DNA of 28,577 bases, taken from positions 1 through 28,577 of IMG/VR virus record IMGVR_UViG_3300023175_000160; one strand, written 5' to 3'. Each line of letters opens with the position of its first letter. Position 1 is the stretch's first letter. Positions 2,371 to 23,584 of the stretch are shown in pieces. Source of the DNA: a virus. The translations under genes and the position numbers were made by a program. The notes below the pieces were generated by a model. That model was not told where the DNA came from and did no database searches. It saw nothing but the letters and a program-made list of their open reading frames with translations.

Positions 2371-2393
2371 TTTTTCATAAAAACTATTGACAT
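2371..2393 (+). repeat. 23-nt promoter-upstream repeat, copy 2
   Basis: Identical to 8-30. It spans an A/T-rich upstream element and most of the -35 region of the promoter that reads into the structured RNA. Confidence 0.85.
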
Positions 2394-2415
2394 CATAATG
2401 AAACTATAGTATAAT
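2387..2415 (+). promoter_or_regulatory. Perfect sigma-70 promoter P4 for the structured RNA
   Basis: TTGACA at 2387-2392 and TATAAT at 2410-2415 have a 17-nt spacer. The start of transcription is expected near 2421-2423. No open reading frame of note follows until 3139. Confidence 0.88.
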
Positions 2416-2421
2416 AGTTGT

Positions 2422-3057
2422 ATATTGAGGGAAAGGCCCCACCGCGAAAGAGAAAATAGAATTCGCGATTCTATGATCCGGTGAGTAGATACCTTGAGTC
2501 GAGAAGAGGACTTTATCAATCCAAAGGCTCATAACAATAGGTCAAATAACCAGCCTCAGGTTCGCCTGAGACCGAGGAATCGGTTAAACACATGGTTAAA
2601 TTGCGAATCAATAGAGCGGGTGGGAAACCCTGTCCGAGCATGAAGAAACGCTCGATGCTATAGTCGGCTAGGAGCCGCGTACTGAGAACGAGATAGGTTT
2701 AGGTCGCAACCTAAACAACACAGAACGGCAGTTCAGGATCTTTCTTCTTTAGGTATAGGAGTAGTTTGCTACTCTCGAGACTGAAGTTAACAAGTATCAG
2801 GTAAATCCGAGACAGGTACCCGCGAATTTCTAAGTTTTTTAGATTGGAATATTACGATTAACAATTCCACATTATTTAACGAATTGCGTTAACACAATAT
2901 TTCCAATCACTAAGGTAGTTTGAAATCCCTGAGTAGTCATCAGGTCCTTTAGAAAGGCAGTAAGACCAAATGACGATTGTGACACTGAAGTTCAATACCT
3001 AGGCGGATCTTGTCATACCTTTGATAGGCGTATATGGAAGGTCCGCCGTTTTTTTAT
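2422..3057 (+). ncRNA. Large ornate structured RNA, about 635 nt, GOLLD/ROOL-like candidate
   Basis: This 770-nt gap between genes (2368-3138) is bounded by a perfect promoter and a strong terminator and has no credible reading frame. Helices visible directly: CACCG/CGGTG (2440-2444 with 2479-2483) enclosing ATAGAAT/ATTCTAT (2456-2474); CTCAGG-ttcg-CCTGAG (2555-2570); ACCGA-ggaa-TCGGT with a GNRA loop (2571-2584); CGAGC/GCTCG (2635-2654); CGGCT/AGCCG (2665-2677); GTTTAGGT-cgca-ACCTAAAC (2697-2716); GAGTAG-tttg-CTACTC (2759-2774), inside TTCAG/CTGAA (2732-2736 with 2781-2785); a 12-bp stem 2842-2853 with 2896-2908 carrying a one-base bulge; and CCTGA/TCAGG (2928-2944). Size, phage setting and an adjacent tRNA recall GOLLD and ROOL RNAs, which form large homo-oligomers. 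I cannot assign either class from memory. RNase P and tmRNA cores are not seen. Confidence 0.75.
3002..3057 (+). terminator. Intrinsic terminator of the structured RNA
   Basis: A 10-bp stem, GGCGGATCTT (3002-3011) with AAGGTCCGCC (3039-3048, one G-U), is followed by a run of seven or more T. It separates the structured RNA from tRNA-Glu. A weaker inner helix (CATAC with GTATATG) fills the loop. Confidence 0.85.
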
Positions 3058-3059
3058 TC

Positions 3060-3134
3060 GGCCCGTTCGTCTAGTGGTTAGGACACATGGTTTTCATCCA
3101 TGCAACAGGAGTTCGATTCTCCTACGGGCTACCA
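3060..3134 (+). tRNA. tRNA-Glu (anticodon UUC)
   Basis: A 75-nt tRNA. The acceptor stem GGCCCGT/ACGGGCT has a G-U first pair. The D stem GTCT/GGAC resembles bacterial tRNA-Glu. The anticodon stem CATGG/CCATG holds the loop TTTTCAT, giving anticodon TTC. The T arm AGGAG-TTCGATT-CTCCT is intact and CCA is encoded at 3132-3134. It begins only 3 nt after the terminator tail of the structured RNA; no strong promoter of its own is visible, so it may depend on read-through. Confidence 0.95.
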
Positions 3135-18897: not shown

Positions 18898-20616
18898 TTA
18901 GATATCCCCTCGCTTAGCGTAATCACCACTAACAGTAAATGTGGTATCTCCAGCTTCGTTAAACACCTCAAACGAACCGTGTTCAGTTTCAACATAAACT
19001 GTATTAACGTTTCCTTCGTTATATGTTTTACTTCCTTCATAATCTTCTGCCAATATCCATTCATTATTATCACCATCTTTATCAATTAATATTGGGTGAT
19101 CGTTTGTAATTTCCAACCAATCATCTAGTAAATAGAATCCTTCACGTGGATGGTCTTTAATAATATTTACAACTTTTGTCCAACCAGAATTTGACCAAAT
19201 CTTATCACCAATTTCAATATCGTAAACTCTTTCTAATGTGGCCGATGTTGTTTTATGTAATACTTTAACTAACATATCATTTGTTAGACAAACAGATGCA
19301 CTTCCAGTACTTGAAGCAGACGTAATTACGTGTATTCTTATTTCCTTAAGTAATGTATCGAGAGATGTTGCATCTCTACCATATATACTTAATGTTCCTG
19401 TTGTTATGTAAGTATGCGTTTCTTCATTATACGCAGTTGGCCCAGGATGATTAATTGCTAGAGTAATACCAGTGCTCATGGCAGATGATGTTGTTTTCCA
19501 ACCAGAATCAGTTGTCCCAGTACTAAACGCACCACCGTTAAAAGTTCTTAAAGGTAAAACTTGTCCAGATGCATTTGATGCCGCTGAGCAATCCCAAACT
19601 GCTCTGATTCCCGTTACATTATTTGTAGCAGTAAAGTCATAAAACTTTGTTGGTGGTGGAGTATAGGTTAAACGATAAGTCGCAGTACCGGCCCCATTAC
19701 CTTGAATGCTTCCTGTTGTTGATACCTGTGTACCCCTAGTATATGTATATCCATCACTTGGGTCTGGTGCATATTGTGAACCTGGGTATATAATTGTATT
19801 ATATCGTGTAGTTCCACCTCTTTTAATTGTATAAGTAACAAGATATACTCCTTCACCATCTGGAGCATCCCACGATTCATACCACTCATCCACACCGGCG
19901 CTATACGCATTAGTTACGGTGTCAACGTTATCTAACCAGCTGGTGATAGCATCTCCACTTACCCATCCTGGTGGGAATGCGGAGCAAGATGGATTATTTC
20001 CAGCAAGATTGCCGGTCATATCGGTACCTTTATCTTCTACTTCAACTTCTATTGATTTGGTTCCTGATAGGAATACTCTATATTCAGTCGAAGAATCACA
20101 TGTTACAGAGCTTGTAGCGTAATTACTTGCTAAACCACCTGAACTGAATCCAACTAAGTTACTGCCTCCGCCATCATCAGGACTACGAACATTATTCATT
20201 GTTGTAGTACCTGCTAAATTAGACTGAGCAGGTGCTTGCGAACCATCCCATGCAGTTGCGACCACTCTTACAGTATTTCCATCCCAAGCAGTAAGACCAA
20301 TTTGCCAATATCGTGTACCTGACCAAGTTGGTTCGGTATCTTCGGCAAACTTAAAACTTGAAGGAAATGTTGGTACGTTTCCGGCTGAACCGACGTCTAA
20401 AAGAAGAATCGCTGTTTTACCTGTTGCTAAATTAGTCGCAGTAAACGTTGTAGCTGCAGATAGTACGACTGACATAATAGGTATGTCCATATCAATAACA
20501 GTTGTGATGGTTTCAGCATTAGCATAAAAAGATGAATATATTCCAGACAAAGACCCAAAATTTTGAATCTTAAATGAATCTGTAATTACTTCTGTTGTTG
20601 CTATTTTAATTGCCAT
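18898..20616 (-). CDS. Fiber-type structural protein ending in a Hint domain, paralog B
   Basis: The protein has 572 residues. Residues 1-125 are the shared N-terminal domain (PIMSVVLSAATTFTA, GKTAILLLDVGS, EPTWSGTRYWQIGLTAWDGN). Residues about 150-440 are Gly/Ser/Thr/Tyr-rich and beta-like. Residues 443-572 read as a Hint (hedgehog/intein) domain: block A CLTNDMLVKV with Cys443 as the nucleophile, ERVYDIEIGDKIWS, block B EITNDHPILI with the TxxH motif (His507), and a final block VYVETEHGSFEVF. The C-terminal His-Asn of splicing inteins is absent and there is no C-extein, so cleavage or transfer of the N-terminal part at Cys443, as in Hog or BIL-type domains, is the expected chemistry rather than splicing. 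Activity is inferred. Confidence 0.82.
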   Translation of the reverse strand: MAIKIATTEVITDSFKIQNFGSLSGIYSSFYANAETITTVIDMDIPIMSVVLSAATTFTATNLATGKTAILLLDVGSAGNVPTFPSSFKFAEDTEPTWSGTRYWQIGLTAWDGNTVRVVATAWDGSQAPAQSNLAGTTTMNNVRSPDDGGGSNLVGFSSGGLASNYATSSVTCDSSTEYRVFLSGTKSIEVEVEDKGTDMTGNLAGNNPSCSAFPPGWVSGDAITSWLDNVDTVTNAYSAGVDEWYESWDAPDGEGVYLVTYTIKRGGTTRYNTIIYPGSQYAPDPSDGYTYTRGTQVSTTGSIQGNGAGTATYRLTYTPPPTKFYDFTATNNVTGIRAVWDCSAASNASGQVLPLRTFNGGAFSTGTTDSGWKTTSSAMSTGITLAINHPGPTAYNEETHTYITTGTLSIYGRDATSLDTLLKEIRIHVITSASSTGSASVCLTNDMLVKVLHKTTSATLERVYDIEIGDKIWSNSGWTKVVNIIKDHPREGFYLLDDWLEITNDHPILIDKDGDNNEWILAEDYEGSKTYNEGNVNTVYVETEHGSFEVFNEAGDTTFTVSGDYAKRGDI

Positions 20617-21614: not shown

Positions 21615-22370
21615 TTAATCGCGGCGTTCAATATCATCTTCTGACAATTTGTCTCCAAGCCATACTTCAATTACTTTCGCAGGTTCTGTTCCTACGTTTG
21701 TTGCTTTGTGCCAAACACCTTTTGGAATATCAATACTTTGCCCTGCCCAGTATACTCGAGATTCTTTCTTTCTCATACCGTAATCTAATTCCATAAGTAT
21801 AGCACCATCAACCACGTGCCAATGTTCTGACCTATGTTCATGTCTTTGGTCACTTAAAGAATTGCCTGGGTCAAAAGATAATTCTTTTACTTGCCATTTA
21901 CCGTTTGTATGTAATACAGTATAAGATCCCCATTGTCGGTTGACTGTAGGTTGTGACCATTCTTTTAATATCCAACTTGAGGAATTTCTTTTATCTTCAC
22001 CACCGATACCGAACTCAAAATCAACTCCCTCTACAGCCATTTCAGGAATGTTATCGGACGTTCTATCGCCACCATTTACAAATACAACAGTATCATTGGG
22101 GTATAGTGCTTTAACTTGTTCTAAACAGTGTATGGCGCTGCCATCTTTATCGTCAAATGATAAAACTTGGTCAACACAAGATAGTGCGCCAACAATAGAA
22201 GCGCGTTCTTCCCAAGGCATAAAGTATCTACCTTTCTTTCGTTTTAACCAAGAGTCTGAATTTACTCCGACAATTAATCTCATACCACAAGTAGCAGCTT
22301 CTTCGAGATATTTAATATGTCCTGAATGTATTGGGTCAAAGCCTCCTGTAGCAACTACTGTAATCATAAT
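21615..22370 (-). CDS. Cytidylyltransferase-cupin fusion (nucleotide-sugar type)
   Basis: The protein has 251 residues from the ATG at 22370, chosen because GGAGG lies 4 nt upstream; an ATG 21 nt earlier would place that site inside the gene. Residues 1-135 are a nucleotidyltransferase of the RfaE/TagD fold: TVVATGGFDPIHSGHIKYLEEA with HSGH at 14-17, and RNSSSWILKEW in the C-terminal motif place. Residues about 145-250 are a cupin like type II mannose-6-phosphate isomerase: HEHRSEHWHVVDGAILMELD, IDIPKGVWHKATN, KVIEVWLGDKLSEDDIERRD. Joined activities would suit making an activated sugar or polyol. It overlaps the preceding gene by 7 nt. The exact substrate is not visible. Confidence 0.86.
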   Translation of the reverse strand: MMITVVATGGFDPIHSGHIKYLEEAATCGMRLIVGVNSDSWLKRKKGRYFMPWEERASIVGALSCVDQVLSFDDKDGSAIHCLEQVKALYPNDTVVFVNGGDRTSDNIPEMAVEGVDFEFGIGGEDKRNSSSWILKEWSQPTVNRQWGSYTVLHTNGKWQVKELSFDPGNSLSDQRHEHRSEHWHVVDGAILMELDYGMRKKESRVYWAGQSIDIPKGVWHKATNVGTEPAKVIEVWLGDKLSEDDIERRD

Positions 22371-23584
22371 TCCTCCATAAAGTAATCCCATACAAAGTTT
22401 AAGTCTTTTGTTGTTTTCATTTCTTTTGGTAAATCAATAACGTCCGGGTGATAATACCAATCTTCGTATGGATGATTTGGAGCAAAGCTAACATTAGGTA
22501 CTGCTAATTCATAGCCGTGAGATTTTAGAAGTTTTCTTGCTTCATCTTTTCTTTCATTTCCTAAACGATAAGAATCATGTTCAAATGTAATTACACCAAA
22601 CTTATATCTGTGAAAAGGAATATTCTTTAAGATATCAATTGATACATCATCACAGTCAACTTGTAAATAATCAATCGTAGGTTCCATACAATGTTTACTA
22701 AATAAATCTTCATAATTAATTTGTGTTGCATCAGCACAAATAACTGTATTGTTTCTATTCTCTTTAAATTTATAACATAAAGCTTCTGATGCGTCAATAG
22801 AAATACCTTTCCATCCATATTCTTGTTCAAGCAATGCGGTATTGTTATGAACGAAAGGATCACCTGAACCAATTTCTAAATAAGTGCCATTCTTTTTACC
22901 ATCATACATTGATAAAATAAACATATCTTGAAAATGCTTTGAATGATTCTTATGAATTCTTTCTAAGTTTTTAAATAAAAATTTAAATCTTTCAAAATCA
23001 TCGGCACAATATTGAATTACATCAGGATAGAAAATATTACCTATGATTTCATCAACTTCTGCTTTAAGTGTAGGCTTTAATTTATGTCTATATTTTAAAT
23101 CAAAGAATAACTGTTTTCCGTTTTGCTGACCGCTAATATACCAAGTTGCTAATGCTTGATAATATAATAACCTTTCTTCTCCAGGAAATCCTAGTTCGCA
23201 ATTTTCTGAAAGATGCATATTTGTAAGAGCAGAATTTGCATGAGCTAAACAATGCTTCCAATAACTTCTCTCTGTATAATATTTACATAAATGATAATGG
23301 GCTTCAGGTCTTTCAGGAAGCAGAGCAACCGCATCAAGTAATGCACCTTCTACTGTAAATCCTCTATCTCTTTGTCTATTATAACAACGAGCAATACCTA
23401 TCATACATTTATATTGTAATTCTTTATTACCAATAAATTCTGACTCAGATAAATCAGCAGCCTTTAAATATAAGGATACTGCCATTGCTCCCTGTTCTAA
23501 TTTATCGTATTCTTGAGCTAAGTCATAACACTTGTAAGGATTCTTTCCATCATATATATGAGCTTCTAATAATTTCTGTAGCAC
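22364..23584 (-). CDS. TPR-like N-terminus fused to FkbM-type methyltransferase
   Basis: The protein has 406 residues from a GTG start (23584-23582) that overlaps the previous stop (TAGTG) and follows GGGGAGAGG. Residues 1-170 are helical pairs like tetratricopeptide repeats (CYDLAQEYDKLEQGAMAVSLYLKAAD, GIARCYNRQRDRGFTVEGALLDAVAL, HYHLCKYYTERSYWKHCLAHANSAL). Residues about 225-406 form an SAM-dependent methyltransferase: GTYLEIGSGDPFVHNNTALLE (glycine-rich SAM loop), GISIDASEALCYKF, VICADATQINYEDLF, IDYLQVDCDDVSIDILKNIPF, FEHDSY. This matches the FkbM family, which often methylates sugars. TPR-type N-termini occur on phage glycosyltransferases. It acts with neighbours in a glycan cassette. 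Confidence 0.85.
   Translation of the reverse strand: MLQKLLEAHIYDGKNPYKCYDLAQEYDKLEQGAMAVSLYLKAADLSESEFIGNKELQYKCMIGIARCYNRQRDRGFTVEGALLDAVALLPERPEAHYHLCKYYTERSYWKHCLAHANSALTNMHLSENCELGFPGEERLLYYQALATWYISGQQNGKQLFFDLKYRHKLKPTLKAEVDEIIGNIFYPDVIQYCADDFERFKFLFKNLERIHKNHSKHFQDMFILSMYDGKKNGTYLEIGSGDPFVHNNTALLEQEYGWKGISIDASEALCYKFKENRNNTVICADATQINYEDLFSKHCMEPTIDYLQVDCDDVSIDILKNIPFHRYKFGVITFEHDSYRLGNERKDEARKLLKSHGYELAVPNVSFAPNHPYEDWYYHPDVIDLPKEMKTTKDLNFVWDYFMEEL

Follow-up and report, generated by a model that had tools for sequence, protein, structure and literature searches.

A candidate new family of large structured non-coding RNAs with their own promoter and terminator in T4-like phages

The DNA analyzed here, referred to as the window, is a 28,577-nt (28.6-kb) IMG/VR virus record whose gp23 shares 65% identity with its Methylophilales phage Melnitz counterpart and 61% with the one in Pelagibacter phage HTVC008M, and on the basis of these identities the source virus is a T4-like phage without a close cultured relative, probably of marine origin. 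A non-coding RNA locus of ~633 nt lies at positions 2423-3055, and it and its flanks contain the following features.

2387-2415, plus strand: sigma-70 promoter, TTGACA-17-TATAAT
2423-2824, plus strand: core domain of ~400 nt, conserved in 58 entries, with covarying helices
2842-2908, plus strand: module B, a long variable stem under a conserved cap
2911-3001, plus strand: module C, a conserved domain with a hairpin bearing a UAGUC loop, and AAUGACGAUUGUGA
3002-3055, plus strand: structured rho-independent terminator, U-run at 3049-3055
3060-3134, plus strand: tRNA-Glu (UUC), the immediate downstream neighbor, outside the RNA

The original prediction was of a large structured non-coding RNA of about 635 nt with no credible reading frame, a perfect sigma-70 promoter and a strong terminator, and each of these elements is supported by the present analysis of promoter, terminator, fold and covariation. 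No ORF of at least 60 aa overlaps 2425-3055 on either strand. The promoter matches the consensus at 12/12 positions and would start the transcript at ~2422-2424; three further perfect sigma-70 sites are found in the first 1 kb of the window, and it is therefore the ordinary strong promoter of the source phage. The predicted fold has an energy of -171.4 kcal/mol compared with a shuffle mean of -156.3 (z -3.15), and 0/20 shuffles were as stable. The terminator is built of a 10-bp stem that covaries across homologs (p = 0.0015), a U7 run and a long structured loop, the length of which exceeds that covered by the automated terminator scan. The tRNA-Glu is also located where it was predicted to be, except that 4 nt rather than 3 separate it from the U-run. 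With no conserved reading frame, a promoter and terminator of its own, and a covariation-supported secondary structure, all hallmarks of large structured phage ncRNAs, the locus at 2423-3055 looks like a self-contained unit of transcription.

The window and 57 further viral-contig entries make up a family of 58, a number that counts near-duplicates and truncated contigs (the less redundant set is 29), and within it the ~400-nt core is 47-100% identical to that of the window in aligned columns. The family was built from the conserved motifs of one divergent homolog, L003, which lies next to a related gp23, through IMG/VR pattern scans and then nhmmer. Homologs with upstream sequence have TTGAC(A/T)-17-TATAAT followed at a fixed 8-9 nt by an invariant UUGAGGG, the same spacing as in the window, and such a fixed 5′ end should be expected of an independent RNA rather than of a drifting leader. 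Four family records searched whole contain one copy each, and none was found in Melnitz, HTVC008M, AG-345-F15, phiN3 and ten other viral records searched in the same way. A blastn search of a cultured-phage collection with the window and five homologs either returned no match or matched tRNAs or terminators alone, a search of plasmids with the family gave no match, and a bacterial-genome scan yielded no family member. A core motif matched bacterial genomes twice (Desulfacinum), in both cases over a short stretch, by chance and not in a family member. Among the collections searched, the family is known only from viral contigs.

The core is predicted to contain the following helices.

P3, 2440-2444/2479-2483, plus strand: encloses P3a
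P3a, 2456-2462/2468-2474, plus strand: hairpin with palindromic loop UCGCGA at 2463-2468
P4, 2494-2500/2526-2531, plus strand: accompanied by P4a, which has a conserved UUAUCAA loop
P5, 2547-2552/2593-2598, plus strand: three-way junction spanning 2547-2598
P6, 2555-2560/2565-2570, plus strand: UUCG loop in the lineage of the window
P7, 2572-2575/2580-2583, plus strand: conserved GGAA loop
PL, 2629-2634/2811-2816, plus strand: long-range helix
P9, 2637-2641/2655-2659, plus strand: loop with conserved GAAGAAAC
P10, 2665-2669/2673-2677, plus strand: helix
P16, 2682-2685/2797-2800, plus strand: closes domain 2682-2800, domain covariation
P11, 2690-2694/2738-2742, plus strand: domain covariation
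P12, 2697-2704/2709-2716, plus strand: domain covariation
P13, 2723-2726/2731-2734, plus strand: domain covariation
P14, 2744-2747/2783-2786, plus strand: domain covariation
P15, 2759-2764/2769-2774, plus strand: helix

Most of the clear helices noted originally are backed by covariation among homologs, the test that had been proposed for them, and the expected GNRA-type loop is the GGAA at 2576-2579 in P7. In our arm-swap test, native helices were compared with those formed by arms exchanged between sequences, with the best helix sought equally in both over 2000 permutations and relatedness ignored. P3, P3a, P4, P4a, P5, P6, P7, PL, P9, P10, P12, P13, P14, P15, and P16 each gave p = 0.0005, which indicates that 15 core helices, including the long-range closures PL and P16, have been kept by compensatory change. 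PL is arguably the most vivid case, as its arms are CCUGUC/GACAGG in the window, CCCAAC/GUUGGG in L112 and L100, GCGUCUC/GAGACGU in L091, and AUUGGUC/GGCCAAU in L086. P11 gave p = 0.12, a value that is little informative alone, and single P11 pairs do covary, while P2 and the UUGA/UCAA pairing of the 5′ end are nearly invariant in the arm-swap set. A candidate P8 pairing near 2611-2618/2678-2685 was rejected (p = 0.97).

For the P11-P16 domain, 87.9% of cells are paired, whereas slid structures reach no more than 50%. Its covariation score of 0.508 compares with 0.230 after shuffling (0/500) and no more than 0.128 after sliding, and its 64 double-change cells with 23 and no more than 14, respectively. 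Against a tree-based null, in which substitutions are replayed on the tree, 12/86 named pairs reached E < 0.05, a figure that is rough and if anything low as offsets were set by hand and P5, P9, and P13 are off register, and of the 20 column pairs that covary most strongly, 9 are helix pairs where 0.02 were expected. An earlier tree-based analysis of 19 sequences was low in power, with 2 pairs at an all-pairs E ≤ 0.05, and RNAalifold, run automatically on the 3′ half, produced a consensus of poor quality. A covariance model of P11-P16 (R1) recovered the insertion-bearing members L123, L238, L243, and L245, on which it had not been trained, at E ∼1e-22 and the truncated L014 at E 5e-7, and it had no match in the other gp23 relatives scanned.

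Comparison of the 3′ ends shows that the RNA is modular, consisting of the core and optional domains B and C. The 12-bp internal stem of the original prediction lies in module B (∼12 bp at about 2842-2853/2896-2908), where the stem varies freely under compensation and the cap, composed of ACGA, helices UUAAC/GUUAA and AAUUC/GAAUU, and the loop CACAUUAUUUAAC, is conserved. Module B is present in 39/59 sequences checked, in two sequence types, and the arm-swap test gave p = 0.0005 for its outer stem and p = 0.028 for its middle helix. Module C, which is possibly pseudoknotted, is present in 17 sequences, and compensations in its hairpin were identified by eye, the covariation windows being only approximate. 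In L086, L171, L205, and L223 a simple terminator comes straight after the core, other copies have the core and module B, and some have the core, B, C, and the covarying terminator, as in the window. L110 begins at a contig edge inside module B. There is also a natural deletion form, L103:2027-2450, that is without most of P5-P16 and retains the 5′ end, P3a, and modules B and C.

The genes downstream of the RNA are equally varied and include tRNA-Glu, hemC, a gp19-like tail gene and an hsp20-like gene (both named from reading their translations), and small ORFs. Many homologs thus carry hemC or another gene where the window has its tRNA, and a tRNA neighbor does not define the family. The hemC gene (porphobilinogen deaminase, PF01379, E 1.5e-58) was identified at L100:2206-3033, in an uncultured T4-like phage, and similar genes in L003, L091, L095, L099, L101-L106, L108, and L109 directly follow the RNA or tRNA-Glu; in the cultured-phage collection hemC matches are <36% identical, and several resemble host DNA in the records. 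In many bacteria tRNA-Glu supplies the tetrapyrrole pathway, to which hemC also belongs, and hence their pairing may not be chance.

Because the 3′ end is modular and the downstream neighbors differ, the RNA most likely acts in trans. We propose, with evenly balanced confidence, that it represents a new phage-specific family of independently transcribed, large structured RNAs that act in trans as an RNA particle. The sequences themselves show a strong sigma-70 promoter of the host type that keeps its distance from the invariant 5′ end, the ∼400-nt core with its 15 covarying helices, the terminator, and 3′ domains B and C that are optional and have been gained or exchanged between phages. The RNA would be made early, as judged from a promoter that is the same as those of the small genes around it, and plentifully, would self-associate through the palindromic P3a loop to form at least a dimer, and would act by binding or sheltering a host or phage factor. 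A role of this sort has also been suggested for GOLLD and ROOL.

The P3a loop is the only sequence signal found that bears on mechanism. It occurs in five independent classes, UUCGCGA, AAUGCAA, AAACGUA, AGUAAUUAA, and UGAAAGAGU, the first four of which hold a four-letter palindrome (CGCG, UGCA, ACGU, and AAUU; 4/5, P = 0.02 by shuffling) that lies at positions 3-6 in 3/3 seven-nt classes (P = 0.00012), both P values being weakened as the loop was picked after inspection. The letters of such a palindrome are adjacent and unable to pair inside one loop, which leads to the same kissing-loop argument as for OLE and GOLLD. In OLE the L9.3 loop switches palindromes, the basis for the symmetric kissing loop there, and in GOLLD the kissing loop L21a is likewise palindromic and symmetric (PMC12286853). 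Complementarity to more than 2/4 of the P3a palindrome classes is not found at any other site of the core. Dimerization by this route would not be universal, since P3a is without a palindrome in L086 and L014 and is missing from the L087/L091/L123 group. We regard self-association of the RNA as plausible but somewhat short of an even prospect, and a multi-subunit homo-oligomeric RNA particle as a tentative suggestion. An extra P10 hairpin, the loop of which contains a GUAC palindrome, is present in the P3a-less L123, L238, L243, and L245 and possibly stands in for the P3a contact; L123 and L238 have an additional hairpin in P6 too.

The alternative that has to be taken most seriously, although we consider it rather unlikely, is that the RNA is a monomeric scaffold or decoy for one protein or the ribosome, in which case the palindrome would reflect intramolecular kissing between P3a and P12, or chance. 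The P12 loop is complementary to the P3a tetramer in 9/20 sequences, some lineages do without P3a, and the raiA-motif RNA is a precedent for a large monomer (PMC12286853), but loops of the ACGU and AAUU classes do not allow P3a-P12 pairing, and L103, the deletion form, retains its UGCA loop without P12. It is improbable that the RNA acts in cis, as a leader or attenuator for tRNA-Glu or hemC downstream. Many homologs do lie directly 5′ of one of these genes, L091 has the RNA, tRNA-Glu, and hemC consecutively, and in L133, L144, and L225 a reading frame comes just 3′ of the core with no terminator seen, where a leader role is possible. The downstream gene varies across the family, however, and in L205, L171, and L222 an ordinary terminator closes the RNA and a new promoter lies beyond it. 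With differing neighbors and several copies that end in a simple terminator, the RNA is therefore probably not the leader of one gene.

The GOLLD or ROOL relationship envisaged in the original prediction is very unlikely, even as distant membership diverged too far for covariance models. Rfam searches of the window, L086, and L123 at E ≤ 10 gave nothing beyond tRNA and chance, the latter including preQ1, miRNA, and CRISPR-repeat signals (E 0.09-3.8, below threshold). Searches of nine family records by name with GOLLD (RF02032) and ROOL (RF03087; run without a positive control), for which the Rfam gathering cut-offs are 150 and 99.1 bits, respectively, gave nothing on the RNA, the only GOLLD signal being one of 6.1 bits elsewhere in G014. 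Like this family, GOLLD is a large structured phage RNA that is often near tRNAs, with marine examples, and ROOL is phage-borne, about 600 nt, and often near tRNA islands, and a variable end is a further similarity. However, many GOLLD RNAs are >800 nt with no sequence or structure match to this family, and the universally conserved part of GOLLD lies 3′ with the 5′ region less so (PMC12286853), whereas here it is the 5′ core that is conserved and the 3′ end that is variable or absent. OLE is likewise large and ornate, with palindrome switching in L9.3 that resembles that of P3a (PMC12286853), but it is bacterial and protein-associated, and no Rfam match to it was seen. Vibrio phage ICP1 makes an abundant ∼800-nt non-coding transcript, likened by its authors to GOLLD and ROOL (PMC7567579), and the cultured-phage blastn search with this family found no homolog of ours. 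The open-access literature searched describes GOLLD, ROOL, OLE, and the ICP1 transcript, which is unclassified, and yielded no description that matches this family. Hence, of the two options of a divergent member or a new class, the comparisons point to the second, a new family of large structured phage RNA that is absent from the searched catalogues and is not GOLLD or ROOL. A catalytic RNA, such as a ribozyme or self-splicing intron, might be suggested by the complex conserved core and long-range helices but is highly improbable: there was no match to group I, RNase P, tmRNA, or known ribozymes (group II peaked at 11.4 bits, E 4.6, and only in L086), no gene is interrupted, and the RNA has its own promoter and terminator.

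GOLLD and ROOL form RNA cages, a 14-mer and an octamer, respectively, the purpose of which is a standing puzzle. A separate family would be an independent and tractable case in which to ask if self-assembly is general among large phage RNAs, and its compact ∼400-nt core, many variants, L103 deletion, and detachable 3′ modules should help to locate the part that bears the function. It would also add to the catalogue, being absent from Rfam and the searched cultured-phage records. A more speculative form of our proposal, and one that we hold only loosely, is that this family is the third of its kind in phages, with no relationship to GOLLD or ROOL, and that its members assemble into a symmetric complex of RNA alone by way of a kissing loop with switching palindromes and have an interchangeable 3′ cargo or targeting domain (B, C) swapped between marine T4-like phages.

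Three observations concern other parts of these records. L086 contains a glutamine riboswitch (RF01739, 60.9 bits) at 1615-1667, some 490 nt 5′ to the core of its RNA. In the window, the ORF at 18898-20616 has a C-terminal part that by eye is Hint (hedgehog/intein)-like (CLTNDMLVKVLHKTTSATLERVYDIEIGDKIWSNSGWTKVV), and that at 21615-22391, in the phage structural region, is a fusion of cytidylyltransferase-like and mannose-6-phosphate isomerase/cupin domains.
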